NCBI GenBank assembly: GCA_007693745.1
Contig: REDA01000031.1
Coordinates: forward strand, 1-64,000
Origin: Balneolaceae bacterium
GTDB taxonomy: Bacteria > Bacteroidota > Rhodothermia > Balneolales > Balneolaceae
DNA: 64,000 nt
Direction: 5' to 3'
Positions 13,481 through 38,523 of this stretch are shown here, piece by piece. Below the pieces are notes generated by a model. The model did no database searches. It worked only from the letters and a program-made list of their open reading frames with translations, and was not told the origin of the DNA. A program made the position numbers and the translations under genes. Each line of letters starts with the position of its first letter. The stretch's first letter is position 1.

Positions 13481-16400
13481 ATGAAATTACGTTTAAATTA
13501 TCTCAGTCTGAAAATGGTAGTGGTCTGTTTTTCAGCTCTGAATATCTCAAAGGGTGCAGAGCTGCAGGCCCGCCAGGTGGTTCTGAATGAGGTGATGTCG
13601 TCCAACAGCCGCACGATTGCTGATGAGGATGGAGACTACCCCGACTGGATCGAGCTCTATAATGCGGGCGGCGAGCCGGTGGCGCTTGGGGGTTACGGCC
13701 TCTCGGACGATCTGGGAAATCCCTTCCGCTGGGTCTTCCCCGACACCACCCTTGCCCCCGGCGGGTACATGCTGGTGTGGGCTTCAAACAAGGAGCGCGC
13801 AGTGCCGGGCGGGCCACTGCACACGAACTTCGCCATCGCCTCATCGGGCGAGCCGGTCCTTCTGACCCGCAGCGACGGGGAACTGGCGGATCTGTTGACA
13901 GCCAGAGAGATCCCGACCGACTGGTCGGCAGGCCGTTATCCAGACGGTACGGGGGAGTGGGTCTATTTTGATGACCCGACCCCCGGAAGTGCCAATATAA
14001 CGGAGCCTGTGCAGGGGCTTCTGGAGCCGTTGGTCTTCTCGCATGAGCCTGGGTTTTACAGGGAGGTGTTTGATCTGGAGATCACCCATCCTGAGGAGGG
14101 GGTGACGATCTACTACACGCTGGACGGTTCGGAGCCGACCCGGGAGTCGGCCGTCTATGAAGGCCCCATTCGGATCCGCGACCGCACCCCCGAACCGAAT
14201 ACGATCTCGATGATACCTACGAACAGAGCTGAAGGAGGCAGAGCATTCAGAGCGCCGCTGAACCCTGTAAGGAAAGGAACTGTAGTGAGATCTTTGGCAG
14301 TGAAATATGGATTCAGGGATACTTCAGATACCCGGTCTTATTTTATTTTCAATAATGAAGCTGACAACCATGCATTGCCGGTAATTTCCCTTACAACGGA
14401 TACAGGAAATTTATTTGACAACAGAATTGGAATCTATGTTCCCGGAGTCAATTATCGTAATAACAGGCTGGATACAGGAAATTATTATCAGAGAGGTCCG
14501 GAGTGGGAAAGGCGGGCGGGAATCGAATTTTTTGATGAGCTTGGGATTCGAAAAGTTTCTCAGGATGTAGGTATCCGGATTCACGGTGGATTAACAAGGT
14601 TTTTCCCACAAAAAAGTTTAAGAGTCTATGCAAGAAGGGAGTATGGTGAAAACAGGATGGAGTACCCCTTGTTTGAAGACGTTCGCTATACAGGATACAA
14701 AAGATTCATTCTAAGAAATTCCGGCAATGATTTTGGCCTGACGATGATGCGTGATGCGGTGGCACAGAAGATGGTTGAGCACTTTAATCTGGATACCCAG
14801 GCTTACAGACCGTCGGTGGTTTACATCAATGGGGAGTATTGGGGAATTCATAACATCAGAGAGAGATATGACAAGTACTATCTGGAGAGAGTGTATGATA
14901 TTGACCCGGATCATATTGATCTGATTACAGGCAATCGAACCGTAGTAGAGGGTGATTTATTTAATTATGGAAACCTACTTCAATTCATAGAAAATCATGA
15001 CTTATCAGATGAGGTTTTCTATCAGTTGTTAGATGAAAAAATCGATATCGATAACTTTATAGATTACAACACAGCACAGGTTTATCTTGTAAATATCGAT
15101 TGGCCGCAAAACAACATCGATTTTTGGAGATCCAGGACCAGTTTTGATATAAATGCCCCAAGAGGTAAGGATGGAAGATGGAGATGGTTACTCTATGATA
15201 TGGACTATTCACTTGGATATATAGCACCTGAAACCGGATTCATCACGGATGAATCTTTTGATATGGTTCAATGGCTAATGAACGATATAAATCCCGTGAA
15301 TGGAGAAGAGTGGCCAGGGAGACTGTTCAGAAAGCTTATCAATAATCAGGAGTTCAAACACCGATTCATCAACCGCTTGGCAGATCATTTAAATACGTCT
15401 TTCAGAGAGGAAAGATTAAAGTCTGTTATTGAAGAATATCAATTGGGGATATCTGCTGAAATGACCCGTCACTCAAGCCGGTGGGGTACTCCCGGCTCCG
15501 TAGAACTATGGGAGTATCATGTTGGCACAATGATGAAATTTGTTGAAAAAAGAGCAGATTATGTACGAACACATCTGATGAATCATTTTAATCTGAATGC
15601 TGAACATCTGCTCAGGGTAAATCCGGGTGATTCAGAGATGGGGACCGTTTACCTGAATTCACTTCCAATGAGAACTGAAACACCTGGTTTTGTGATGCAG
15701 GACCATTGGTGGGAGGGCATCTATTTCACTGGTGTGAATGTACAATTGAGGGCAGAGCCAAATCCAGGGTATCAATTTAAATACTGGTTGCTGAATGGGG
15801 ACACAGAAGTGTCGGCTGATATTTTGATTGATCCCGAAGCGATTCAGATAATTCGTGCTGTTTTCACTCCTTACCTCACGGATGATGTAAACCCATTCAG
15901 TACAGAGGAGTCAGATTATCTTCTCGAAGAATGGAATGAAGATGTTCGCGCCGGCTCTTTCCCGGATCACATGGCCTTTGTTTACATGAATGAAGAGGAC
16001 CCCGGGCTGGATGCTGAGATTGCCGGGGTTACTTTTGGCGCCTATAACCTCACTTCGAGAACCCGTATCAACGGCCTTGGGGAGGATGGGTTTTCATTTA
16101 TCAATACCTCGAATCCGGATGGGAATCCCGGTTACCCCGGCACACGCCTGGGTGGAGCCGTCCTGGTGCTGGATACCCGGGGTTCGGAGAAGATCCATGT
16201 GGGATGGCGGGCCGGTACCATCGAGAGAAACTCCCGGATCTATCGCCTCAGGCTTCAGTACCGAACGGATGGGAGTCAGCCTTTCCGCGATGTACCCGGC
16301 CCCGGCGGATCGCCGGTCGGGTATCAAGCCAGTGAGGTGGACGGCCACACACACTATATGGGACCTGTTGCGCTCCCGGATGATGCGGCCAACCGCGAGC

Positions 16401-17431
16401 GGGTGGAACTGCTCTGGAGGTATTACGATTCGGGAGAGCAGATCGACCCGGAGAGTAACAGGCGTTCGGAGCTCTCTGTTTCGGAGATCTATGTTTCCAG
16501 CCAGGGTATTGTACCTTTAGAATCACCTCACAGGCTCGAAGAGGGATCTTATCATTTTACGAACTGGCCGGCAGATGCCGACTCTTCCTCCTATCCGGCT
16601 TCGATGGCTTTTGTGTTTATGAATGAGAGGGATCCCGGACTACAGGCAGAGCCTCTGGGTTATGTGACGGGCAGATATGACCACGAAACCCGCACGAGGG
16701 TCACAGGTCTGGGTGAGGGAGGATTCTCCTTTGTGAATACCTCCGGCCTGCAGGGCAACCCGGGCCTGCCGGGAAGGCGGCTGGGCGGGGCCATTCTGGC
16801 CTTGAATCTCGAAAGGCAGGGCTCGGCTACAGTAGAGTGGAGCGCCGCCACACTTCAGCCCGGATCCCGTATCTACGGCCTGCGCCTTCAGTATAGAACC
16901 GATCCGGAAGAGCCCTTCCGGGACATCTCCAACGAATTTGGCGAAGCCGTGGAGTATATCCGCCATCCTGAAGCGGGCCACCGCCAGACGATCGGGCCGG
17001 TTCTGCTGCCGCCGGAGACCGACGGCAAACCCTATGTGGAACTCTTCTGGCGCTACTACGACACAGGTGTCAGGGTCACGGAGGAGTCGGGAGAGAGATC
17101 AGAGCTGGCCATCACTGAAATCCGGGTGAGTTCCCTGCCGCTGCTGAGCGGAGAGCCGGGCACTCCGCAACGGTTCCGCCTCTATCAGAACTACCCCAAT
17201 CCATTTTATCCCAACTCCACATTGAGGTATGACCTGCCCGAAGATCAGCAGGTGAGAATCGATCTGTTTACGATCGACGGGAGGCATGTGGGTGTACTGG
17301 AGGAGAAATTTGCCCGGAAAGGGCGCCACAGCGTGCCCCTGAGTCTGCCACACCTGGCAAGTGGCGTCTACATCTACCGTTTTTTATCGGAAGAATTTCA
17401 CGAAACGGGCAAACTGAGTATCATAAAGTAG
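13481..17431 (+). CDS. CotH-kinase T9SS cargo protein with lamin-tail, chitobiase-like and duplicated C-terminal domains
   Basis: The 1316-residue protein begins with a signal peptide (about 1-30). The order is: lamin-tail domain (about 32-150), a CHB_HEX_C-like domain (IYYTLDGSEPT, about 190-245), a CotH-type kinase core (about 300-690, with DWPQNNIDFWR and LLYDMDYSLG carrying the acidic residues), an InlB-like repeat (about 720-800), two tandem copies of one ~190-residue domain (about 820-1010 and 1015-1215), and a T9SS type A sorting domain (YQNYPNPFYPNS, about 1225-1316). CotH proteins are atypical protein kinases that phosphorylate extracellular or spore-coat proteins. This one should be exported through the outer membrane and anchored on the surface. 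Base composition is mosaic: residues ~245-826 are much more AT-rich than either flank. The VTC gene starts 286 nt downstream. Confidence 0.88.
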   Translation: MKLRLNYLSLKMVVVCFSALNISKGAELQARQVVLNEVMSSNSRTIADEDGDYPDWIELYNAGGEPVALGGYGLSDDLGNPFRWVFPDTTLAPGGYMLVWASNKERAVPGGPLHTNFAIASSGEPVLLTRSDGELADLLTAREIPTDWSAGRYPDGTGEWVYFDDPTPGSANITEPVQGLLEPLVFSHEPGFYREVFDLEITHPEEGVTIYYTLDGSEPTRESAVYEGPIRIRDRTPEPNTISMIPTNRAEGGRAFRAPLNPVRKGTVVRSLAVKYGFRDTSDTRSYFIFNNEADNHALPVISLTTDTGNLFDNRIGIYVPGVNYRNNRLDTGNYYQRGPEWERRAGIEFFDELGIRKVSQDVGIRIHGGLTRFFPQKSLRVYARREYGENRMEYPLFEDVRYTGYKRFILRNSGNDFGLTMMRDAVAQKMVEHFNLDTQAYRPSVVYINGEYWGIHNIRERYDKYYLERVYDIDPDHIDLITGNRTVVEGDLFNYGNLLQFIENHDLSDEVFYQLLDEKIDIDNFIDYNTAQVYLVNIDWPQNNIDFWRSRTSFDINAPRGKDGRWRWLLYDMDYSLGYIAPETGFITDESFDMVQWLMNDINPVNGEEWPGRLFRKLINNQEFKHRFINRLADHLNTSFREERLKSVIEEYQLGISAEMTRHSSRWGTPGSVELWEYHVGTMMKFVEKRADYVRTHLMNHFNLNAEHLLRVNPGDSEMGTVYLNSLPMRTETPGFVMQDHWWEGIYFTGVNVQLRAEPNPGYQFKYWLLNGDTEVSADILIDPEAIQIIRAVFTPYLTDDVNPFSTEESDYLLEEWNEDVRAGSFPDHMAFVYMNEEDPGLDAEIAGVTFGAYNLTSRTRINGLGEDGFSFINTSNPDGNPGYPGTRLGGAVLVLDTRGSEKIHVGWRAGTIERNSRIYRLRLQYRTDGSQPFRDVPGPGGSPVGYQASEVDGHTHYMGPVALPDDAANRERVELLWRYYDSGEQIDPESNRRSELSVSEIYVSSQGIVPLESPHRLEEGSYHFTNWPADADSSSYPASMAFVFMNERDPGLQAEPLGYVTGRYDHETRTRVTGLGEGGFSFVNTSGLQGNPGLPGRRLGGAILALNLERQGSATVEWSAATLQPGSRIYGLRLQYRTDPEEPFRDISNEFGEAVEYIRHPEAGHRQTIGPVLLPPETDGKPYVELFWRYYDTGVRVTEESGERSELAITEIRVSSLPLLSGEPGTPQRFRLYQNYPNPFYPNSTLRYDLPEDQQVRIDLFTIDGRHVGVLEEKFARKGRHSVPLSLPHLASGVYIYRFLSEEFHETGKLSIIK

Positions 17432-17717
17432 GTATCTGCCCTCTGTATCACGAACCGGAACCTGAAAGGGTGATTACAACCCAAGTCAACATTATCAGAG
17501 AATGAAAGTCAGAGGAGTATCGCCTGCAAACGAACACCCTGCCAGTACATGTTGGCAGCAGATCCCAAGCGAGGGCATTGAATTGTGCAGGACAAATTGA
17601 ACCTGATTGTTAAATTTATTTAAGTTTTATTATTCATTTCTAATCTTTATCCTGAGTGTTAACCGTTATTCGCCGGGAAAGGCGCTTTAGTTTTTAGTTC
17701 GTAAATATCTGTTTGAG

Positions 17718-18464
17718 ATGGGAGTTGACAGGCTGCAGAAGCAGCGTTTTGAGTACAAGTACCGCATATCTGAAGCGAAAGCCGAACAGATAAGGTTATA
17801 TGTGCAAAACTACCTGGTTTGTGATGAGTATGGCGCCACGCAGCCGAATCTCTCCTATCCGGTGAACAGCCTCTATCTCGACTCACCCGACCTGAAGACT
17901 TTTCAGGATACAATCAACGGGGATCTGAACCGGTTTAAACTGCGGATCCGGTATTATGAATATGAGGACACACCGGTCTATTTCGAGATCAAGCGCCGGC
18001 ATAATAAAGTGATCATGAAAAAAAGAGCACAGGTGCGGCGTGAAGCAGTGAGTCACCTGCTTTCGGGCCGGCTGCCTGATTATGACCATCTCATTGAACG
18101 CAGTGATGAGCAGATGGAAGCGCTGGAGCAGTTCTCTTATTTGCAGGCACTGCTCATTGCCCGGCCTCAGATGCATGTTTCCTATTTCCGTGAGGCGTAT
18201 GAACTGGAGCATTCCAACTCGGTTCGGGTAACCTTCGACAGAGATGTGCGCAGCAATAAAAAACATGACATGAACCTGTTGAAAAAAATACCGGGTGATT
18301 TTCCTGTATTTGGTGATAACGTGATTCTGGAAATCAAATTTACCAATCGGTATCCGCACTGGCTGCAGGAGCTGACACAGCTGTTCCATCTCCGTCAGGA
18401 GTCGGCAGCTAAATATGTGGACAGTGTGGAATCACTAATGTTTAAGAAAATTGAAATGGCTTAA
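17718..18464 (+). CDS. VTC-domain (polyphosphate polymerase domain) protein
   Basis: The 248-residue cytosolic protein is a triphosphate-tunnel (VTC/CYTH-like) domain. The basic tunnel residues expected in polyphosphate polymerases are present: FEYKYRI (11-17), KLRIRYYE (74-81), FEIKRR (89-94), KKRA (101-104) and RVTFDRDV (170-177), and the metal-binding Glu lies in ILEIKF (203-208). In yeast the Vtc4 domain makes polyphosphate from ATP. Bacterial stand-alone members are common but little studied. It has no signal peptide. It is followed after 10 nt by DUF4956 and then HlyD, so it is the first gene of a tight operon. Intact tunnel residues argue for activity with a triphosphate or polyphosphate; the product is unproven. 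Confidence 0.85.
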   Translation: MGVDRLQKQRFEYKYRISEAKAEQIRLYVQNYLVCDEYGATQPNLSYPVNSLYLDSPDLKTFQDTINGDLNRFKLRIRYYEYEDTPVYFEIKRRHNKVIMKKRAQVRREAVSHLLSGRLPDYDHLIERSDEQMEALEQFSYLQALLIARPQMHVSYFREAYELEHSNSVRVTFDRDVRSNKKHDMNLLKKIPGDFPVFGDNVILEIKFTNRYPHWLQELTQLFHLRQESAAKYVDSVESLMFKKIEMA

Positions 18465-18474
18465 CTGAATTAGA

Positions 18475-19161
18475 ATGAACGACTGGCTGCAATTTGGGGA
18501 TGCCTCCCCGATCCCTACGGATATCCCAACTCTTTTTCTGGCACTTTTGCTTGCATTCATGGCCGGACAGCTGTTCGCCTGGATCTATATGTACACCCAC
18601 AGCGGATTGTCCTACTCCAAAAATTTTGTGAGTTCCCTGATCATCATTCCAATTACGGTAGCTTTGGTCATGATGGTACTGGATAATAATCTGGTCACTG
18701 CGTTCAGCCTGCTGGCAGTTTTTGCCATCGTTCGATTCAGAAATATACTTCGGGATACGCTGGACACCGTCTATATTCTTTCCCTGATTGTGGTGGGAAT
18801 GGCTGCCGGTACGCAGAAATTTACTACAGCCATCATCGGGGCATTGATCGCAGCTACGGTTCTGCTGCTGATCTGGTTTACCAATTTCGGCGCACGGCAG
18901 CGCTACGATCTGATTCTGAATTTACGATGGGCAGAGCCTCTGTCGATGCTGGATCGGCTGCAGCCGTTTTTCCGCCGACACGCGCTGAAAACCATTCTGG
19001 CCTCGCAACGCTCTACTGAGAATGATGAAGAGACCTATCTCTCCTACAGACTCAGGCTGCGGGATCCTGACAGGGTGGATCTGCTGTTGCAGGAGATAAA
19101 AGAAATTGAAGGTGTTTCAGGCGTAAGCAGCCTGAAAGCAGAAGATGAGTCGGAGGTATAA
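18475..19161 (+). CDS. DUF4956 integral membrane protein
   Basis: The 228-residue protein has an N-terminal membrane region of about four hydrophobic helices (residues ~15-145, e.g. TLFLALLLAFMAGQLFAWIY and FVSSLIIIPITVALVMMVL), followed by a soluble ~80-residue tail. The conserved-looking loop FAIVRFRNILRDTLDT and the GMAAGTQKF segment match my memory of DUF4956. The family has no assigned activity but often sits beside VTC-domain and CotH genes. The C-terminal tail (KEIEGVSGVSSLKAEDESE) has an ACT-like or MgtC-C-terminal-like look, which I cannot confirm. It may pass or anchor the product of the VTC protein at the membrane (inference). The gene is 10 nt from VTC and 2 nt from HlyD. Confidence 0.8.
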   Translation: MNDWLQFGDASPIPTDIPTLFLALLLAFMAGQLFAWIYMYTHSGLSYSKNFVSSLIIIPITVALVMMVLDNNLVTAFSLLAVFAIVRFRNILRDTLDTVYILSLIVVGMAAGTQKFTTAIIGALIAATVLLLIWFTNFGARQRYDLILNLRWAEPLSMLDRLQPFFRRHALKTILASQRSTENDEETYLSYRLRLRDPDRVDLLLQEIKEIEGVSGVSSLKAEDESEV

Positions 19162-19163
19162 CG

Positions 19164-20249
19164 ATGAGAACCTATGAACCTATACCAATACCCTTCAAGC
19201 AGAAATTAAAAGAATTCCGTACCCGGTTTCTTCCGGTGGTGGTCTTTTTAATTTCGGGTATTGCAGTGTTTTTTCTCTGGAGTGATAAGGTGAGCTCACC
19301 CGGAATGATCGGTAAAGCCGTAGCGGGGCAGGCTGAGATCCGAAGTCCCGGAAGCGGCATTCTGATCAATTTTCATCACCGGCCATTCGAGCGGGTTTTT
19401 GAGGGGCAGCTCATAGGTCAGGTGTTCCCGGGTGACAGTCTCCTGCTCGAAGCCAGAATCATGGAGGCAAGAGCAGAGATCGATCGGATTGAACAATCCC
19501 TGGATGTTGTATCGGGTGAACAGAGAACCCGGATTAACCTTGAAGAGCTTCGAATCGACCTGGTGAGAACCCGGATCAACCTTGCAGAAACTGTACTGCG
19601 GAAAAACCTATCGGAAGCTGAACTAATTCGCTTAAGAGAGCTGCGAAACCGGGAGCTGATCGCCGAACAGGAATTCGAACGTGCTGAGACAGCATTCAAC
19701 CTTCTTCTGCTTCAGGAAGAGGAACTTACATCACTGATTGCCGGACTTGAAGACCGCCTCGATGAACTGGAACGTTTCAGCGGATATGGAACCCGTGCTG
19801 ACAGGGATCCTGTTTTAGCTGCAATCAGGGTGCAGGAGCAAAGGATCGAGGTTCTGAGAGCAGAAATGGCACCCATCCCGGTTTATGCATCGATCAATGG
19901 TATTATCAGCAATGTGACTGCCAACAATGGAGAATATGTAACAGCCGGAACTCCGCTGACCTATATAGACGCACCGGCAGCAGACTATGTGGTTGGATAC
20001 GTCAGGCAACCCATATCCGTAGAACCCTATCAGGGTATGAAGGTTCAGGTTACCACGCGCAGACCGGGAAGAAACAGTTTTATCTCTGAAGTCATCGAAC
20101 TGGGAGGGCAGATGCAGCTTATTGATCCGCAACTGCAGCGCCCGGGTGTTTTCAGCGAAAGCGGAATTCCGGTCAAGGTATCTCTGGCCGAAAGCGGAGA
20201 GATTTCGCTGATTCCGGGTGAGATTGTGGATATCTACTTTGTTCGCTGA
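19164..20249 (+). CDS. HlyD-family membrane-fusion (adaptor) protein
   Basis: The 361-residue protein has a short cytosolic N-terminus, one membrane helix (about 22-40), a split lipoyl/biotinyl domain around residues 60-90 and 240-275, a long coiled-coil hairpin between them (about 95-210) and a beta-barrel domain at the end. HlyD-like adaptors link an inner-membrane exporter to an outer-membrane channel. No ABC ATPase or TolC-like gene is next to it, so its inner-membrane partner may be the adjacent DUF4956 protein, which is an inference from position. A strong Shine-Dalgarno sequence (GGAGG, 19152-19156) lies 7 nt before the ATG, and translation follows the DUF4956 stop by 2 nt. Confidence 0.85.
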   Translation: MRTYEPIPIPFKQKLKEFRTRFLPVVVFLISGIAVFFLWSDKVSSPGMIGKAVAGQAEIRSPGSGILINFHHRPFERVFEGQLIGQVFPGDSLLLEARIMEARAEIDRIEQSLDVVSGEQRTRINLEELRIDLVRTRINLAETVLRKNLSEAELIRLRELRNRELIAEQEFERAETAFNLLLLQEEELTSLIAGLEDRLDELERFSGYGTRADRDPVLAAIRVQEQRIEVLRAEMAPIPVYASINGIISNVTANNGEYVTAGTPLTYIDAPAADYVVGYVRQPISVEPYQGMKVQVTTRRPGRNSFISEVIELGGQMQLIDPQLQRPGVFSESGIPVKVSLAESGEISLIPGEIVDIYFVR

Positions 20250-20415: not shown

Positions 20416-21156
20416 CTACCGGACTCCCCCTGCAAAAAAATGATTGAGCTCACGAAATGCTGGAAGCATTCGGGAGCCGTACCAGCTGAACCACTCCCCG
20501 TTTACCAGCCTGATTTCAGAGCTGCGACAGATCGAAGCCACCTCTTCCAGATGCTGTTGTTTGAAAGGATAGGGTTCACTACTCAATAATATGAGATCAG
20601 GCTTCAGCACGGCAAGCTCCGAAAGTGAAGTTTCAGGATAGCGTGTCTTTTCTGCGAAAACATTTCTCAGGCTCCAGTGTTCCATCACGGAATGGATATA
20701 GGTATCCCGCCCCACACTCATCCAGGGTTTTTTCCAGATGAGATATGCAGCGCTCCGCTCCGGAAGTTTCGGGGTGTCCTCCAGCTCTATTCTGATCTCA
20801 CGGATAAGATTAGCTGCATCTCTTTCAGCCCCGCATCGGTTACCGATCCCGTCAATGGCTTGGAATGCGTCTTCTATGGTCTTGATATCGGTAAGCAGCA
20901 GGTCAAATTCCTGTTGAAGCACCTCCACGTCCTCTTTTCGGTTTTCCTCCCTGTTGGCAATAATCAATCCCGGATTCAGGGAACGGATCTTTTCAAGGGA
21001 AGGATTTTTAGTCCCCCCAATAATTTCAGCGGAAGTGACCTTCTCTGCAGGATGAATACAGAAGCGGGTGCGGCCGGAGACCCTGCTGCCTAAACCCAGA
21101 TCATACAGAAGCTCCGTCAGCGAAGGGACCAGGGATAGGATTGTATTTGAGCTCAT
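20416..21156 (-). CDS. BtuF-like helical-backbone metal receptor without signal peptide
   Basis: The 246-residue protein matches the periplasmic-binding fold with a helical backbone used by cobalamin and siderophore receptors: IVPSLTE-like start (LSLVPSLTELLYDLGLG), GRTRFCIHP, GGTKNPSLEKIRSLNPGLIIANREEN and an internal AAYLIWKKPWM. The first residues read directly into the fold with no signal sequence, so as written it would be cytosolic. Such short, signal-less BtuF-like proteins are common in this phylum and stand outside ABC transporter operons; their ligand is not known. No btuC or btuD gene and no cobalamin riboswitch is visible nearby. The gene is convergent with the hlyD gene and has a long empty region upstream. 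Confidence 0.8.
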   Translation of the reverse strand: MSSNTILSLVPSLTELLYDLGLGSRVSGRTRFCIHPAEKVTSAEIIGGTKNPSLEKIRSLNPGLIIANREENRKEDVEVLQQEFDLLLTDIKTIEDAFQAIDGIGNRCGAERDAANLIREIRIELEDTPKLPERSAAYLIWKKPWMSVGRDTYIHSVMEHWSLRNVFAEKTRYPETSLSELAVLKPDLILLSSEPYPFKQQHLEEVASICRSSEIRLVNGEWFSWYGSRMLPAFRELNHFFAGGVR

Positions 21157-21664: not shown

Positions 21665-22753
21665 ATGAACAGGCCACTCTTTCCAATGAGAAAACGGATG
21701 ATCACAATCATCACAGGGATCATGCTCACTGCAATCACCGGGTGCGGTGAATCACCGGAACTCCCTGCTTCGGAACCGGTTGTTTCTGTAACGGTTGCCG
21801 GCTCTGAGACCCGTGATCTTACCGATGAGTTTGCAGTCAGCTCCGAAGTGGTCGCCTACCGCCGGGTTTATATCGCTTCCCGTCTATCCGCGCTGGTGGA
21901 GGAGGTAAATGCCGAAGAGGGAGTCTTTGTGCGGGAGGGTGACGTGCTGGCCCGGCTGGATGTAAGACAGCAGCAATCGGATCTCAGCAGAGCAGCTGTT
22001 TTACTTGAGGAGAGCCGGGATAACTACGACAGAACACGCAGGCTATACGAACAGGGAGCAGTCTCGGAAGCTGAATATCTTACGGTGAAACGACTGTACG
22101 AACAGCGCCGGGCAGAAGCGGAACGGCTGGAACTGGTAATTGAATTCGGCACCATTCACGCTCCGATGAATGGCATCATCACAGCCAGGCTTGTGGAGGT
22201 TGGCAACTCGGTATCCGTGAATGAAAGAATGTTTACCCTGGCTGATATGGATCTTCTGGTCGTTCGTCCGGCCGTTTCGGAAATGAATCTGAGAGGGATT
22301 TCAGAAGGTGATGAGGTAAGGGTCACCCTGGATGTCTATCCGGACCAACTGTTTACCGGGAAGGTACGCCGAATTTTTCCGGCTGCGGATCCGCTGACCA
22401 GGCTATTTACTGTGGAAGCAGAGCTGATGTTGAAGGAATCCGATCCCGTGATCAGGACCGGTTATCTGGCGCGTACACTCTTTACAGCTGATGCGCGAAG
22501 GGAGGTGATCACAGTACCTTCAGAAGCTGTTTACCGGCAAAACGAGACGACCACTGTTTTTTTACTGAATGAAGATCAGAACAGGGTTATAAAAAGAACA
22601 GTTGCAACGGGAGTGCAGCGAGATGGTTATGTGGAGATCATTTCAGGTCTGCAAGCCGGTGAAGTGGTAGCTGCAGCAAATCTGGAATCGCTCCGGGACG
22701 GAACTCCTGTTCGGGTAGTCGGGACTTTACGCAGAACCGGTTTCAGGAACTGA
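21665..22753 (+). CDS. RND efflux periplasmic adaptor lipoprotein
   Basis: The 362-residue protein is a membrane-fusion protein of the AcrA/MdtA type. A lipoprotein signal ends in AITGC (Cys27), so it is lipid-anchored in the periplasm; the ATG at 21686 (residue 8) would also leave a good signal. The order is: first lipoyl half (VNAEEGVFVREGDVLARLD, about 80-98), a short alpha-hairpin with heptads (about 105-160), second lipoyl half (GTIHAPMNGIITARLVEVG), beta-barrel and membrane-proximal domain. It connects the permease to an outer-membrane channel. The RND permease follows after 7 nt, which makes a two-gene operon. No TolC-like gene accompanies it, so a channel from elsewhere in the genome must be used. 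Confidence 0.88.
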   Translation: MNRPLFPMRKRMITIITGIMLTAITGCGESPELPASEPVVSVTVAGSETRDLTDEFAVSSEVVAYRRVYIASRLSALVEEVNAEEGVFVREGDVLARLDVRQQQSDLSRAAVLLEESRDNYDRTRRLYEQGAVSEAEYLTVKRLYEQRRAEAERLELVIEFGTIHAPMNGIITARLVEVGNSVSVNERMFTLADMDLLVVRPAVSEMNLRGISEGDEVRVTLDVYPDQLFTGKVRRIFPAADPLTRLFTVEAELMLKESDPVIRTGYLARTLFTADARREVITVPSEAVYRQNETTTVFLLNEDQNRVIKRTVATGVQRDGYVEIISGLQAGEVVAAANLESLRDGTPVRVVGTLRRTGFRN

Positions 22754-22760
22754 GGAATGT

Positions 22761-25700
22761 ATGCAACAGTCAACGGATGATACTCAGCAAAAATCTTTCA
22801 ACACAAACCGGTGGATCTCCTGGTCTGTACGACGCCCCATAGGGGTACTGGCGATTACTTCCGTGGTGTTGGTTACAGGGATTCTTTTTTCGGGCAGACT
22901 TCCAGTGGATCTGATGCCTCAGATCGATTATCCGCATATCCGGGTTGTGGTTAACTACCCGGGAGTTACACCGGAAGTGATTGAGGAGCAGGTGACACGA
23001 CCACTCGAACGGAATCTTTCTGCCACCGAGAATCTCAGGGAAATTCACGGCAGGGCGTCTGAGGGAAGAAGCTACATCGAGATGTACTTCGATTTTGAAA
23101 CGGATATCGACATCGCCCTGCAGGATGCCAGCCGGCAGCTTGAACGGGCCAGAACCGAGCTTCCGGCGGGTACAGATCCGCCCCGTATCATGAAGATGGA
23201 TCCATCCCAAACCCCCGTTTTTGAGCTTGCCATCTCGTCCTCGGTGCGTTCCCCCATTGAAGTGAGAGAATGGGTAGATCAGCGGCTGATGCCACAGCTT
23301 CTTTCCGTTTCAGGTGTAGGTACCGTGGATATCGCGGGTGGAAAGATCAGGGAAATGGATGTGGTAGTGGATCCCGAACGGATGAGAGCATACAACCTCA
23401 CGATGGATCAGCTTTCGGCAGCTCTTGCGGGACGAAATATCGATCAGGCAATCGGGAATGTGACCTCTTCTGAATATGACATCATGGCCCGCACAGAGAC
23501 GAGATACAGCTCGGCCCGGGATATCGCTGATACCAGAATCCGGATAGGAGCGGCTAACGCTACAGTTCCGCTTTCTGATGTGGCAGTTGTGAGTGATTCT
23601 CACAGAGAGCAGCGTCTGTTTGCCTACCTGAACAGAGAGGAATCGGTTCAGATCTCCGTCATGAAACAGCCGCAGGCGAATACAGTGTCTGTCATTGAAG
23701 GCCTTCAGAGACGGATCGTGGAACTCCGGGAATCCGGTTTTATCACACCGGACATGGAGATTGCAATACTGAAAGACGACTCCTTTTTTATCCTCTCTTC
23801 CATACAGTCGGTAGCCCTGGCAGCTATATTGGGAGGCTTTTTAGCCATGCTGATCCTGTTGCTGTTTCTGGGAAGTATACGGCGCTCACTGATTGTGGCA
23901 CTGATGATTCCGACAGCAATTATCGCCAGTTTTATTTTGATGAACGGCTTTGGTCTGACACTCAACATCATGAGTCTCGGCGGACTCGCCCTGGGTGTGG
24001 GTCTGCTGATCGATAACGCTATTGTGATGATTGAAAATATTCATCGCCACCAGAGTGTACAGGGCAAAGAGGCGGCGGTTGCGGCTGAAGAGGGAGCAGA
24101 TGAAGTGTTGTCTGCTGTAGTGGCAGGGACGATGACCAATCTGGCTGCGGTTCTGCCATTCCTGCTGATCACCGGCCTGGCCGCTCTTCTGTTTCGTGAA
24201 CTGATCTTTACAATCGCTTTTGCCGTTATTGCATCGCTCATCGCCGCGGTTACGCTGGTACCGGCTCTCTCCGCAAGATTTGGAGGGAAAGTATTAGCTG
24301 ACGGTTCCGGATTGAATGGCGGTGGCGACCAGCTTTTCGATAAAATCAGAACAGGTTATGAAAAACTGCTCAGGAGTGCGGTTAAAAGAAAGATATTTCT
24401 GATTCTGTTTTCACTGATGCTGCTTGCCGGCTCGGTATGGATGCTGAGAAATGCAGGTACAGAGTTTCTGCCTTCCGTGGATGATGGAAGAGTGACACTG
24501 CGTTTTACCATGCCTGCCGGAACATCGATCGACCCAACCAATGAAGTGGCTGAATTATTGCAGGAAACAATTGAATCGATGCCTTATGTCGAGACCGTTT
24601 ACATGACTGTCGGGGGGTATTTCAGAGGCGGCCAGCTGTCGATACGAGGGGGCATGATCGATATGGTGGTTCAGCTGGTGCCTCGCCGTGAACGAAGAGG
24701 GTATCCGGCAGAACAGTGGGTAACCGACCTGAACCGGCAAATTTCTGCATTGGGATTGCCATTTATACAGAGACGGATCCGGGGACCAAGAATAGAGGGA
24801 CTGCAGACCAGTCTTGTGGAGAGTGATATTGCCATCGGTTTTGTTGGCGATGATCTGAACCGGCTGGAGGAGCTGGCACGATCTGCTCTTTCCCATCTGG
24901 ATCAAATCTCCGGCATCGCCAGCATTCAGGTTGGAAGGGATCAGAAAATTCCTCAGCTCGTCCTGAATGTGGATGAGGAACGCGCCGCTGCCGCGCAGTT
25001 GTCATCCGCAGATATTGCACGGTTTCTTACAGAGGCTGTGGAAGGGGTGGTTCCTACCCGTTATGTTGAGGGAGGATTTGAATATAATGTACGAATCAGA
25101 TATCCCAGAGAGATTACTGGTGATCAATCCGGATTGCGTCAACTGCATATTTCCAATGCTGTGGGACAAAGCGTTCCGCTTGGGAGCCTCGTGAGCTTTG
25201 AAGAAGTGACCGGGCCGGCTCATATCGAACGATTCAATCAGATTCGGGTGGTTTGGCTCAACACCACTGTCAATCTCAATGAGGCAACTATCGGCCAGGC
25301 AGGCGACCAGATACGTACTGCACTTCGGGAATTTGAGATGCCGGACGGCTACAGTATCGTTTATGCCGGGGAACAGGAAGCGATTGAAGAGGCAGGGAGA
25401 TCACTTCAGCTGGCCATCCTGCTGGCCATATTTTTCGTCTTTGTTGTGATGGCTGTTCAATATGAACGCATTTTCAGTCCGCTGGTCATTCTCACATCCC
25501 TCCCCTTTGCCCTGATCGGGGTGGCAGCTTCACTGTGGATCACCGGATTGTCACTCAGCGCCTCTGTGCTGATCGGGATCATCTTCCTTACAGGAATCGT
25601 GGTGAACAATGCAATTCTGCTGGTCGATTTTGCAGAAAAAAATCAAAAAGAGAGAGGAATGACACTCAGTGAAGCCATTCTGGAAGCCGGTTCGGTTCGG

Positions 25701-25928
25701 TTCAGGCCCATTTTGATGACAACACTCACCACAATCTTCGGAATGCTGCCCCTCGCTATCGGGATGGGTGACGGACATGAAATTTTGCAGCCCCTGGCGG
25801 TTACTGTAATTGGCGGAATGATCGCGGGAACAGTGCTGACCCTGTTTCTGATTCCCGGAATATATACACTTCTCGGAGGCTGGCTGGAGTATTTTAAGAA
25901 AACGGATTCAATAAACAGTTTGAAATAA
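22761..25928 (+). CDS. RND efflux permease
   Basis: The 1055-residue protein is a full-length resistance-nodulation-division pump with two repeats of 6 membrane helices plus a large periplasmic loop. Visible features are the first TM after SVRRPIGVLAIT, the periplasmic start VNYPGVTPEVIEEQVTRPLE, and the TM4 proton-relay segment GVGLLIDNAIVMIEN, in which the first acidic residue of the AcrB pair is kept and the second is Asn. The final helices contain GIVVNNAILLVDFA. It trades protons for export of hydrophobic compounds or metals across the envelope with the upstream adaptor. The family is certain; the substrate is not deducible. GAGGA just before the ATG is a plausible ribosome binding site. 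Confidence 0.92.
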   Translation: MQQSTDDTQQKSFNTNRWISWSVRRPIGVLAITSVVLVTGILFSGRLPVDLMPQIDYPHIRVVVNYPGVTPEVIEEQVTRPLERNLSATENLREIHGRASEGRSYIEMYFDFETDIDIALQDASRQLERARTELPAGTDPPRIMKMDPSQTPVFELAISSSVRSPIEVREWVDQRLMPQLLSVSGVGTVDIAGGKIREMDVVVDPERMRAYNLTMDQLSAALAGRNIDQAIGNVTSSEYDIMARTETRYSSARDIADTRIRIGAANATVPLSDVAVVSDSHREQRLFAYLNREESVQISVMKQPQANTVSVIEGLQRRIVELRESGFITPDMEIAILKDDSFFILSSIQSVALAAILGGFLAMLILLLFLGSIRRSLIVALMIPTAIIASFILMNGFGLTLNIMSLGGLALGVGLLIDNAIVMIENIHRHQSVQGKEAAVAAEEGADEVLSAVVAGTMTNLAAVLPFLLITGLAALLFRELIFTIAFAVIASLIAAVTLVPALSARFGGKVLADGSGLNGGGDQLFDKIRTGYEKLLRSAVKRKIFLILFSLMLLAGSVWMLRNAGTEFLPSVDDGRVTLRFTMPAGTSIDPTNEVAELLQETIESMPYVETVYMTVGGYFRGGQLSIRGGMIDMVVQLVPRRERRGYPAEQWVTDLNRQISALGLPFIQRRIRGPRIEGLQTSLVESDIAIGFVGDDLNRLEELARSALSHLDQISGIASIQVGRDQKIPQLVLNVDEERAAAAQLSSADIARFLTEAVEGVVPTRYVEGGFEYNVRIRYPREITGDQSGLRQLHISNAVGQSVPLGSLVSFEEVTGPAHIERFNQIRVVWLNTTVNLNEATIGQAGDQIRTALREFEMPDGYSIVYAGEQEAIEEAGRSLQLAILLAIFFVFVVMAVQYERIFSPLVILTSLPFALIGVAASLWITGLSLSASVLIGIIFLTGIVVNNAILLVDFAEKNQKERGMTLSEAILEAGSVRFRPILMTTLTTIFGMLPLAIGMGDGHEILQPLAVTVIGGMIAGTVLTLFLIPGIYTLLGGWLEYFKKTDSINSLK

Positions 25929-26101: not shown

Positions 26102-27748
26102 ATGACAGCAGTAAACCATTTTTCCATCAAACAGTTTCTGAGTATCGCTTTCTGTTTGATGCTCTCCGGATTCTCTGTTCTGACGGCACAACAGAGCTCA
26201 TTTCCCTATTCAGTGGAACTCAGGGAAGTTAGCATTCCGGGGTTGCCGGGTTTTCACTCCTTTGCCTATGGACAGCATGACGGCAAATGGCTGATTGTCG
26301 GCGGGCGAACAGACGGAATTCACGCAAGGCAGCCGTTCGCTTCTTTTCCGCCAAATCATAACAATGAATATCTCTTTGCGATTGACCCTTCCACAGGAGA
26401 GTTCTCTGCAGAGAAACCTGTCGGACTTTCCGTTGGAATCAGAGAGCATCTGCAGTCCACAAATATGAATTTTCAGCAGGTTGGAGATACACTCTACATC
26501 ATCGGTGGGTATGCTTTCAGTGAATCAGCCGGAGATCACATAACATTCCCAAAACTTACTGCGATCGTTGTATCCGAGGCGATACAGCAAATTGAAGAAG
26601 GGAGGCTAACAGATGAAATATTTGGCCATCTTTATGATGAACGGTTCGCAGTAACAGGCGGTCAGCTGGGTTTCATCGACGGGAAACTGATTCTGGTGGG
26701 AGGGCATCGGTTTGATGGACAGTACAACCCGAGAAATATGCCCACCTTCCGGCAGGAATACACCCATGCCATTCAGATTTTCAATATTGAAACCGCCATT
26801 TCAGATCCTCAGATCTCATTCTATGAGAGAGTAGTTGATGAAGAGCATCTGCGCCGCAGAGACTATAATCTTGTCCCCTATCTCTTTCCGGATGGGGAGC
26901 CGGGTTATATGATATCAACAGGAGTATTTCAGCGCGGTGCCGATCTGCCTTTTCTCTACAATGTGGAAGTGGGAAAAGAGGGTTTTTATCGGCCTGTACC
27001 GGAATTTGACCAGCTGTTGAGTCACTATCACAGTCCGAAACTGTCTCTCTACGAGCAGGCGAGCGGAAGATTTCATATGCTCTTTTTTGGCGGCCTGGCG
27101 CAATTCTATTTCCAGGGAGATCAGTTGATACAGGACGACCGGGTCCCGTTTGTGAACACGATCAGCCGGGTGACAAGAGATGCTAATGGGGTTTTTTCTG
27201 AGTATGCGCTTGCGCTTGAGATGCCCGGGCTGAAGGGGACCAGTGCAGAGTTTATTCCAAATCCCGGTATTCCAAAAAATGAGACAGGAGTGATTCTTGA
27301 AAATAGCATTATGGAAAGCAGGTTTTTGGCAGGTCATATTGTCGGAGGTATTGATTCTCCAGTCCGCAATCCATTTGCAACCAATCAGACCCAGGTTACC
27401 AGCGCCAGTTATACAGTGTATGAGGTCTGGCTGGAAAGAGGAGGGTCTGCGGAAATCCCGGTAGATTCACACGGAAATAGCGATACTCAACTCCATCCGA
27501 ACTATCCGAACCCCTTTTCTGAATCAACTACAATCCATTTTACAATAGGGCAGGACAGTCGGGTTCAGCTGGATCTCTTTTCTGTTCAGGGTTCAAAAAT
27601 AGCAACGATTCTCTCAGCTCAAATGAATCAAGGTACTCACCAGCTGCAGTTTGATTCAGGGAATCTCGCCAGTGGACTCTACCTGCTAAGAATGAGTGCC
27701 GAAGGTGTGATTCGAAACCGTGCAATACTACTCAGCAGGGCTGATTAG
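26102..27748 (+). CDS. T9SS-sorted Kelch/propeller-like secreted protein
   Basis: The 548-residue protein has a signal peptide ending near VLTAQ (about 30), a central region of repeated beta-strand units with Kelch-like texture (WLIVGGRTDG, LYIIGGYAFSE, LILVGGHRFDG, MLFFGGLAQFY), and a type IX sorting domain at the C-terminus (about 462-548) with the NYPNPFSESTTIHF motif and the ASGLYLLR motif. It should be secreted across the outer membrane and attached to the surface or released. There is no catalytic motif, so it may bind a ligand or polymer. The start lies 18 nt after repeat copy B. No T9SS core genes are in this window. Confidence 0.85.
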   Translation: MTAVNHFSIKQFLSIAFCLMLSGFSVLTAQQSSFPYSVELREVSIPGLPGFHSFAYGQHDGKWLIVGGRTDGIHARQPFASFPPNHNNEYLFAIDPSTGEFSAEKPVGLSVGIREHLQSTNMNFQQVGDTLYIIGGYAFSESAGDHITFPKLTAIVVSEAIQQIEEGRLTDEIFGHLYDERFAVTGGQLGFIDGKLILVGGHRFDGQYNPRNMPTFRQEYTHAIQIFNIETAISDPQISFYERVVDEEHLRRRDYNLVPYLFPDGEPGYMISTGVFQRGADLPFLYNVEVGKEGFYRPVPEFDQLLSHYHSPKLSLYEQASGRFHMLFFGGLAQFYFQGDQLIQDDRVPFVNTISRVTRDANGVFSEYALALEMPGLKGTSAEFIPNPGIPKNETGVILENSIMESRFLAGHIVGGIDSPVRNPFATNQTQVTSASYTVYEVWLERGGSAEIPVDSHGNSDTQLHPNYPNPFSESTTIHFTIGQDSRVQLDLFSVQGSKIATILSAQMNQGTHQLQFDSGNLASGLYLLRMSAEGVIRNRAILLSRAD

Positions 27749-36276: not shown

Positions 36277-38523
36277 TCAATGTTTCATGAAAGATCTCGG
36301 AATCGGCTCATTCAGATTCTTGGTGTGATCCATGAAAAATTGCTGTGAGGCCAGTTTTTTATCAGACTTTTTCTTTTTCACTTTCACATAGTTCCCATTC
36401 GGCTTCATCATCCACCGTTGTGTGTTGTCGTGAAGGTAGATCCTCATCATGAAACCCAGATACCGTTTCAGTTCCGGGTTTTCAATGGGTGCCAGTACCT
36501 CTACCCGTGCATCCAGGTTTCTGTGCATCCAGTCTGCGGATCCGATATACCATGCATCTTCTCCTCCTTTATGGAAATAATAACAGCGTGAATGCTCCAG
36601 AAACCTGCCAATCACTGAATGGACGCGGATTTTTTCACTTAAACCCGGTTTTTGGGGAATGAGCCGGCAAACACCCCTGACGATCAGGTCGGTTTCAACA
36701 CCGGCCTGGGAAGCCTCATACAGTTTTTGAATAATCAGAGGGTCTTCAAGGCTGTTCATCTTGGCAATGATTTGCGCTTTACGTCCTTCAAGTGCCTCCT
36801 GAATCTCTCCATCAATCAGTTTTACAATATTGCTGCGAAGATGCCTGGGAGCTACAAAGGTTTTTTGAAATGTCTGCTCCGGTGCATAACCGGTCAGCAG
36901 GTTGAAGACATTCGTGACATCTGTGGCCAGTTCGTCGTCGCAGGTGAACAGACCAAGATCTTCGTACAGCTGCGCAGTATCGGGATGATAATTTCCGGTA
37001 CCGATGTGAACATAGCGCCGCAGTCCGGCAGTTTCCTCCCGGACAACAATCGTCAGCTTGGAGTGAATTTTAAGTCCCGGAATTCCATAGGAAACATGAA
37101 CCCCCGCTTTTTCAAGCTTTTGAGCCCAGGTAATATTCTGTTCTTCATCAAACCGGGCTTTCAGCTCAACAAGTACGGCTACCTGTTTATCATCTTCAGC
37201 CGCTTTAATCAGCGAATGCATCACAGCAGAATCGCTGGAGGTCCTGTAGAGAGTCTGCTTGATGGCAAGTACCTTGGGGTCATTGGCAGCTTCTTCAATA
37301 AAGCGCTGCGTTGACGTTTCAAAACTGTGGTAGGGATGATGGACCAGAAAATCACCATTCTTGATAACCTGAAAAATGTTTGGAGCACTTTCGTCCAGAG
37401 GGTGCCTGAACACCGGGTGCAGTGCCGGTACCCAGCTGTCAGATTTCAAATGAGGGAACCCGCCAAGTTTACACAACTGGGTTACGTCGGCGAGACCGAT
37501 GGGACCCTCCATTTCAAATACATACTGATCTTGGATGTTGAGATTGTTCAGAAGGGATGTGCGAATATCTCTGGGCATATTGCGGTCAATCTCCAGCCGA
37601 ACCACCTCGGCGAACTTCCGCTCTCTCAATTCATCTTCAATCATCTCCAGGAGATCGTCAGCTTCCTCTTCGTTTCGCTCGATATCAGCATTTCGGGTCA
37701 CCCTGAAAATATTTGCACTCAATACCTCCATGCCCGGGAAAAAACGCATCAGTTTCTCAACGATCAGATCTTTTACGGACAACAGAGTAACTGCCTCATC
37801 ACTTTGCTCCAGTTCAATCCAGCGAGGCCGGTTGGTTGGAATTTTTATTCTCGCGAATAGAATTTCACCACTCCTCGGGTTTCGCAGCTTGATTGCAAGG
37901 GAACGGCTTTTGTTGGAGATAAATGGAAACGGATGCGCCTGATCCACAGCAAGAGGGGTAACGATCGGATAAATCTGTTTTTCAAAATAATCATCCGCCC
38001 TCACTTTCAGTTCATCAGAGAGATCATTGTAAGGCGTGATACGGATCCCCTCTATTTCCAGTGCCGGTAAAATTTCTTTTAAAAAACAGTTCCGGTATGC
38101 CTTTATCATTTTCAGGACTTCATGACGAATTTCAGCCAGCTGTTCCTCTGGAGTACGCCCGTCCACAGTCAGCTCCGTAACACCCGCATGCACCTGTCTT
38201 TTCAGACCTCCAACCCGTTTCTGAAAAAATTCGTCGAGGTTGGAGCAGACGATCCCGATAAATTTGGTTCGCTCCAGAAGCGGATTTTTAGGGTTTAGCG
38301 CTTCAGCCAGTACCCTCCAGTTAAACTTCAGCCAGCTTAGCTCATAGTTATCGAAATAGTTTTTCCCAAAGATTTTTAAATCACTGCTGCGAGGGTCCTT
38401 ATTGAGGCCCTTGCTCTTTAATACCTTGTTCTTCAGCGGATTTGGCTTTGGTTTACCTTCCCCGATGTCCAAAAGATTTATGGGTTCGAAACCGGATCCT
38501 GATTTTTTGGTTGATTCAGACAT
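36277..38523 (-). CDS. ppk1: Polyphosphate kinase 1
   Basis: PPK1 reversibly makes inorganic polyphosphate from the gamma-phosphate of ATP. The 748-residue protein has an N-terminal extension of about 50 Lys/Pro/Asn-rich residues, then the PPK N, middle and two C-terminal phospholipase-D-like domains. The two catalytic histidines are recognisable in KIHSKLTIV (the autophosphorylated His of the family) and YVHIGTGNYHPDTAQLYEDLG. The C-terminus is basic (KVKKKKSDKK). It is convergent with the sigma/TPR operon and divergent from ruvB. The VTC-domain gene 18 kb away adds a second polyphosphate-related protein. Confidence 0.94.
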   Translation of the reverse strand: MSESTKKSGSGFEPINLLDIGEGKPKPNPLKNKVLKSKGLNKDPRSSDLKIFGKNYFDNYELSWLKFNWRVLAEALNPKNPLLERTKFIGIVCSNLDEFFQKRVGGLKRQVHAGVTELTVDGRTPEEQLAEIRHEVLKMIKAYRNCFLKEILPALEIEGIRITPYNDLSDELKVRADDYFEKQIYPIVTPLAVDQAHPFPFISNKSRSLAIKLRNPRSGEILFARIKIPTNRPRWIELEQSDEAVTLLSVKDLIVEKLMRFFPGMEVLSANIFRVTRNADIERNEEEADDLLEMIEDELRERKFAEVVRLEIDRNMPRDIRTSLLNNLNIQDQYVFEMEGPIGLADVTQLCKLGGFPHLKSDSWVPALHPVFRHPLDESAPNIFQVIKNGDFLVHHPYHSFETSTQRFIEEAANDPKVLAIKQTLYRTSSDSAVMHSLIKAAEDDKQVAVLVELKARFDEEQNITWAQKLEKAGVHVSYGIPGLKIHSKLTIVVREETAGLRRYVHIGTGNYHPDTAQLYEDLGLFTCDDELATDVTNVFNLLTGYAPEQTFQKTFVAPRHLRSNIVKLIDGEIQEALEGRKAQIIAKMNSLEDPLIIQKLYEASQAGVETDLIVRGVCRLIPQKPGLSEKIRVHSVIGRFLEHSRCYYFHKGGEDAWYIGSADWMHRNLDARVEVLAPIENPELKRYLGFMMRIYLHDNTQRWMMKPNGNYVKVKKKKSDKKLASQQFFMDHTKNLNEPIPRSFMKH

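Follow-up and report, generated by a model that had tools for sequence, protein, structure and literature searches.

We found that a VTC-domain protein, a DUF4956 membrane protein and a HlyD-type adaptor, encoded in a tight operon in a Balneolaceae genome, may be one version of an exporter which crosses the cell envelope and serves CotH-family kinases located outside the cytoplasm. To the full explanation, including the feeding of polyphosphate into the exporter, we assign a probability of about 0.45. Because these genes travel with surface kinases across many bacterial groups, the kinases may depend on them for something required outside the cell, which could be phosphate chains.

The locus and its four proteins

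The window is the whole stretch of DNA that was analysed, 64,000 nucleotides of contig REDA01000031.1. A preliminary description, made from the sequence alone, had reported four genes here, and open reading frames and profile searches bore out their positions, their domains and the two short gaps between the last three:

13481-17431, + strand: CotH-family kinase, 1316 aa (open reading frame, Pfam and NCBIfam profiles)
17718-18464, + strand: VTC-domain protein, 248 aa (open reading frame, Pfam)
18475-19161, + strand: DUF4956 protein, 228 aa (open reading frame, Pfam)
19164-20249, + strand: HlyD-type periplasmic adaptor, 361 aa (open reading frame, Pfam)

The gaps are 10 nt between VTC and DUF4956, 2 nt between DUF4956 and HlyD, and 286 nt between CotH and VTC. 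The CotH gene therefore lies upstream of the VTC-DUF4956-HlyD operon on the same strand, not within it. A scan of the operon for promoters and terminators gave signal at chance level. As had been described, no ABC ATPase gene adjoins HlyD, and the gene downstream (20416-21156) is on the opposite strand. Pel genes (pelDEADAFG) were absent beside the operon, which is flanked by genes for a TPR protein, Peripla_BP_2, HlyD and an RND pump; the separate HlyD and RND pair is at 21665-25928. Past the RND pump genes, at 26102-27748 (+ strand), a second protein combines a T9SS sorting domain with a weak match to Kelch. The nearest fetched record to this locus is a Balneolaceae MAG with 82% identity in DUF4956.

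The CotH protein matched PF08757 over its full length (4e-53, Pfam). It has a signal-peptide-like N-terminus, an LTD domain (residues 30-140), a CHB_HEX_C domain (190-245), a CotH domain (365-695) and a C-terminal sorting domain (1238-1312). The CotH domain carries the acidic motifs NxDxxxN (538) and DxDxxL (573), among which we take the catalytic aspartate to lie. The sorting domain scored 27.4 bits against TIGR04183 (cut-off 23) and 24.2 against Pfam's T9SS sorting model, below the cut-off of 27. With SprA also encoded in the genome, the TIGR04183 match supports the earlier prediction that this CotH protein is exported by the T9SS. The genome has three CotH genes, two of them located away from the operon.

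The VTC protein matched PF09359 with 135 bits (3.9e-39, cut-off 23), and the family profile recovered yeast Vtc4 at 2.6e-22. Its tunnel residues had been called intact, which stands for ten Vtc4 residues (K200, R264, R266, K281, K294, Y359, R361, E426, K428 and K458) but not for K455 and S457, which have no match. Substitution of R264, R266 and E426 inactivates yeast Vtc4 (PMC9911596). The window protein is a lone soluble VTC domain lacking both SPX and a transmembrane part, and is thus not a eukaryotic-type VTC complex.

The DUF4956 protein matched its Pfam family with 37.9 bits (1.9e-9, cut-off 30.6). Its model (pLDDT 82.5) has five predicted helices followed by a C-terminal ACT/ferredoxin-like domain at about residues 142-225. 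At the end of helix 3 is an RFR motif (residues 87-89), which loop charge suggests faces the cytoplasm; RFR or RYR was present in 142/142 DUF4956 proteins. A fold search matched only the ACT/ferredoxin domain; the membrane helices were barely probed by it and matched no solved structure. A short DUF4956 variant of about 186 aa occurs without VTC or HlyD in L087, L088 and L093, and those genomes also lack CotH.

The HlyD protein has one N-terminal hydrophobic segment, a match to HlyD_3 in its C-terminal region (3.2e-9, Pfam) and a coiled coil in which one stretch, RLRELRNRELIAEQEFE, looks like a TolC-docking tip. Only 30 of 97 HlyD proteins fitted a strict regular expression for such a tip, so we left the motif out as family evidence.

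Conserved linkage and co-occurrence with CotH

We placed 142 DUF4956 proteins in loci drawn from a 198-genome phylum survey and from GTDB contigs, some of these loci being near-duplicates. The next gene after VTC was DUF4956 in 101 loci, at a median gap of 1 nt; HlyD came directly after DUF4956 in 62 and VTC directly after HlyD in 27, both at a median gap of 3 nt. In all, about 140 loci repeat these gene pairs, with median gaps of 1-3 nt, and HlyD is abutted by DUF4956 or VTC in nearly 90 fetched loci from many phyla. The order VTC-DUF4956-HlyD is found in Balneolaceae, Verrucomicrobiota and Planctomycetota, and the order HlyD-VTC-DUF4956 in Ignavibacteria and other Bacteroidota. The four-gene neighbourhood first noted in the window is conserved in relatives, and the joint-system idea of the preliminary description withstands the linkage check set out with it. 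The monoderm comparison covers few loci and was not counted as evidence. Some gene runs hold further genes: a small membrane protein of about 200 aa lies between CotH and VTC in three loci (L165:3486-4094, L161:7585-8160 and L143:7639-8250), its L165 copy having no Pfam match, and Arylsulfotransferase-like (ASST) proteins occur in two VTC/DUF4956/CotH runs (L146:2386-4794 and L062:11463-13160).

Across the 198 genomes of the phylum survey, VTC was found in 37, DUF4956 in 59 and CotH in 81. All 37 genomes with VTC had both DUF4956 and CotH, compared with CotH in 81/198 overall (Fisher P = 8e-18 for VTC with CotH and 6e-24 for DUF4956 with CotH, relatedness being ignored). We also surveyed 92 genomes of the window's family, taking the main counts from the 67 with completeness of at least 90%. 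DUF4956 and CotH were both present in 33 of these and both absent in 32, with two discordant genomes (agreement in 65/67), and none of 20,000 within-genus shuffles reached the observed agreement. The T9SS is present in 88/92 family genomes, so the agreement does not reflect co-loss of the secretion system. Nor does it reflect physical linkage in the VTC-less genomes inspected, because CotH is encoded there on a different contig or at a distance of hundreds of kb. We conclude that the conserved unit is almost certainly tied to CotH in function.

VTC itself proved dispensable to the unit. VTC was present in 15 of the 34 family genomes with DUF4956 (at least 90% complete) and missing from 19, and a first survey had found 15 family genomes carrying DUF4956 without VTC. 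VTC as the core of the system is ruled out by these relatives, which keep the DUF4956-HlyD operon; every genome with VTC had DUF4956, both in the phylum survey (37/37) and in the family survey (22/22). DUF4956 and CotH, rather than VTC, are the partners that stay constant. With VTC missing from 19/34 genomes, the cargo cannot simply be the VTC product everywhere, and the earlier proposal that it is does not hold as a general claim.

A candidate export route and its cargo

Five OEP proteins are encoded in the window's genome, none adjoining the operon. TolC-family genes lie 3' of HlyD in Planctomycetota, Verrucomicrobiota, Fibrobacter, Spirochaetia and Delongbacteria. The order DUF4956-HlyD-OMF-VTC is found in Fibrobacter (L151), Spirochaetia (L152) and Delongbacteria (L147, which also has CotH). 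L051 shows this order too, its TolC-family gene having a Pfam OEP match, an OEP gene (Pfam) directly follows HlyD in L117, L118, L119, L124, L129, L132 and L134, and L167 has the order HlyD-VTC-DUF4956-OEP. On a Hymenobacter plasmid, a HlyD-like gene and DUF4956 are followed by a gene annotated as TolC family. In the VTC-less relatives within Balneolaceae, the operon consists of DUF4956, HlyD and a 410-aa protein (15 family members), whose model (pLDDT 82.7) aligns along its length with TolC and OprM (Foldseek 1.7e-9, TM 0.65); this protein had no Pfam match, and a sequence search against the PDB yielded no TolC. A TolC-like gene also accompanies CotH-DUF4956-HlyD in L086, which has no VTC. 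In Bacteroidia loci a DUF2490 gene stands where TolC would be; its weaker matches point to an outer-membrane barrel.

No ABC, RND or MFS pump genes were seen in the DUF4956-HlyD(-TolC) gene runs inspected. Given the TolC genes in the operons and no such pump, DUF4956 seems to take the inner-membrane role in a tripartite exporter, and we consider it probable that DUF4956, HlyD and TolC form one. The idea that DUF4956 and HlyD make up an export route, put forward in the preliminary description, is strengthened by the TolC-family genes in the same operons and by the genome-wide tie to CotH.

Outer-membrane modules also go with the compartment of CotH. HlyD, DUF2490 or Porin_O_P was present in 22/25 diderm loci whose CotH is secreted (through the T9SS, as a lipoprotein or by a signal peptide) and in 1/8 loci with an inner-membrane-anchored CotH (Fisher P = 2e-4), where the CotH proteins adjoining DUF4956 were sorted by eye from their N- and C-termini, not blind, and lineage is confounded with class. 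This pattern of outer-membrane modules fits a product that has to reach the place where CotH works.

In the mechanism that we propose, DUF4956 would act as the inner-membrane translocator, and HlyD would link it across the periplasm to a TolC-type channel, whose gene lies in the operon in relatives and elsewhere in the window's genome. VTC, where present, would sit at the inner face of DUF4956, making polyphosphate from ATP and passing it through, as yeast VTC does by way of a membrane domain of its own. Once at the cell surface, this phosphate compound would serve the T9SS-exported CotH, which might use it as phosphoryl donor or might attach or bind it as a polymer.

Conservation of the ten tunnel residues makes polyphosphate a credible cargo; where VTC is present, we judge the chances that it is the cargo to be evenly balanced. 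The two lines of evidence suggesting that VTC makes polyphosphate and that the product acts with CotH are this conservation and a set of phosphate-linked neighbours, which are single cases rather than a counted enrichment. Porin_O_P (phosphate-selective porin O/P) genes lie directly 3' of DUF4956 in two unrelated lineages (L165:5563-6657 and L092:7137-8168). In a Campylobacterales MAG, the gene directly after VTC-DUF4956 encodes an inorganic pyrophosphatase domain preceded by an apparent leader peptide (L133:2807-3457). L158 has a histidine acid phosphatase and L089 a metallophosphatase. That CotH uses the exported compound as its donor is a tentative suggestion that we consider rather unlikely to be correct, and we are equally doubtful of the broader proposal that DUF4956-HlyD-TolC is a new class of tripartite exporter supplying surface kinases with a phosphoryl donor, polyphosphate where VTC is present. 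At a distance of about 16 kb, the window also encodes PPK1 (PP_kinase domain, 36277-38523, - strand), with which storage polyphosphate needs no VTC. This organism thus has two unrelated polyphosphate-type polymerases, PPK1 and the VTC protein.

Several points count against the exporter-polyphosphate explanation: about half of the family's DUF4956 genomes lack VTC, DUF4956 resembles MgtC, the window has no adjacent TolC gene, and no effect was reported for deletion of the VTC gene in Streptococcus intermedius (PMC12345266). The exporter could be real and serve CotH while carrying a nucleotide, small peptide or glycan as CotH donor or substrate, with VTC an accessory that makes or turns over triphosphate. 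We regard this as possible, if somewhat unlikely. VTC-less systems such as L086 retain DUF4956-HlyD-TolC and CotH, and Gram-positive sets adjoin exopolysaccharide synthases (PMC7112168) or glycosyltransferases, the latter on a Planococcus plasmid with the order VTC-DUF4956-CotH. However, VTC never occurs without DUF4956 and keeps the residues of a polymerase tunnel, and PPK1, present in the VTC-less genomes of the family, is a possible source of polyphosphate, though nearly universal there.

DUF4956 might instead be a MgtC-like regulator with an ACT sensor that controls VTC or phosphate metabolism, while HlyD uses a pump encoded elsewhere. The window protein scored 25.7 bits against the MgtC/SapB profile PRK09977 (NCBIfam, cut-off 214), the Pfam MgtC profile PF02308 matched relatives, scoring 29.3 on one of them (cut-off 31.4), and the C-terminal domain is ACT-like; the authors of PMC12345266 read their homologue in the same way. 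A regulator would, however, leave the co-occurrence with unlinked extracellular kinases unexplained, and it sits poorly with operons from many phyla in which DUF4956 adjoins HlyD and TolC genes and no further gene for an inner-membrane pump was seen, so we consider it improbable. Finally, the window CotH lies 286 nt off and may have its own promoter, and two of three CotH genes are elsewhere, but recurrence in about 140 loci and co-occurrence within genera rule out a chance neighbourhood and come close to refuting the idea that these are neighbours without joint function, VTC being a cytoplasmic triphosphatase or storage enzyme, HlyD a general efflux component and CotH nearby by chance.

We know of no dedicated bacterial polyphosphate exporter and of no established phosphate source for extracellular CotH kinases. 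If correct, an exporter of a phosphoryl donor would answer how a kinase outside the cell obtains phosphate. Both questions become testable with a conserved operon in which a polyphosphate-polymerase domain is joined to a route across the envelope and which, even inside single genera, co-occurs with surface kinases. DUF4956, so far named only as a domain of unknown function, gains a concrete predicted role.

Comparison with known systems

The trio of CotH, VTC and DUF4956 has already been published, as cotH-PPP-DUF4956(-DUF4832), among the accessory genes of Gram-positive Pel loci (PMC7112168, PMC12345266). VTC genes are also listed beside CotH in C. perfringens NELoc-2 (PMC2879425), where neighbours annotated "tubulin/FtsZ" are probably DUF4956, judging from size and membrane location. 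In S. intermedius, deletion of the DUF4956 or CotH gene altered aggregation and Pel level (PMC12345266). The same study states that the trio was not found outside Pel loci (PMC12345266); our surveys contradict this, as the trio is common there. Beyond the Pel papers, we found no paper on a DUF4956 exporter, on DUF4956 with HlyD or TolC, or on a link between CotH and polyphosphate, in a search that mostly did not extend to subscription journals. As far as we found, the exporter and its wide distribution are thus apparently unpublished. The window shares the trio with the Pel accessory set; unlike that set, which has a monoderm host and no reported HlyD or TolC, it has HlyD, a T9SS-substrate CotH and no Pel genes.

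DUF4956 and MgtC/SapB proteins share a helical membrane part followed by an ACT-like domain, together with a weak profile match, but DUF4956 proteins score under the family cut-offs. MgtC regulates phosphate uptake and ATP synthase and is not known to act as a channel, and we know of no association of MgtC with HlyD, TolC, VTC or CotH genes.

Like type I secretion, MacAB, EmrAB and AcrAB, the system pairs a HlyD-family adaptor with a TolC-type outer-membrane channel. It differs from them in that DUF4956 occupies the position of the pump, no ABC, MFS or RND gene being seen. As DUF4956 is the sole inner-membrane candidate in the operon, the system resembles a known exporter class but cannot be filed under one.

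With the yeast VTC complex (Vtc4/Vtc3/Vtc1), the window VTC shares the polymerase domain, R264, R266 and E426 being kept, and in yeast synthesis is proposed to be coupled to translocation via a basic membrane channel (PMC9911596). Unlike in yeast, the membrane partner here is a distinct protein, DUF4956, and the presumed destination is the cell surface rather than the vacuole.
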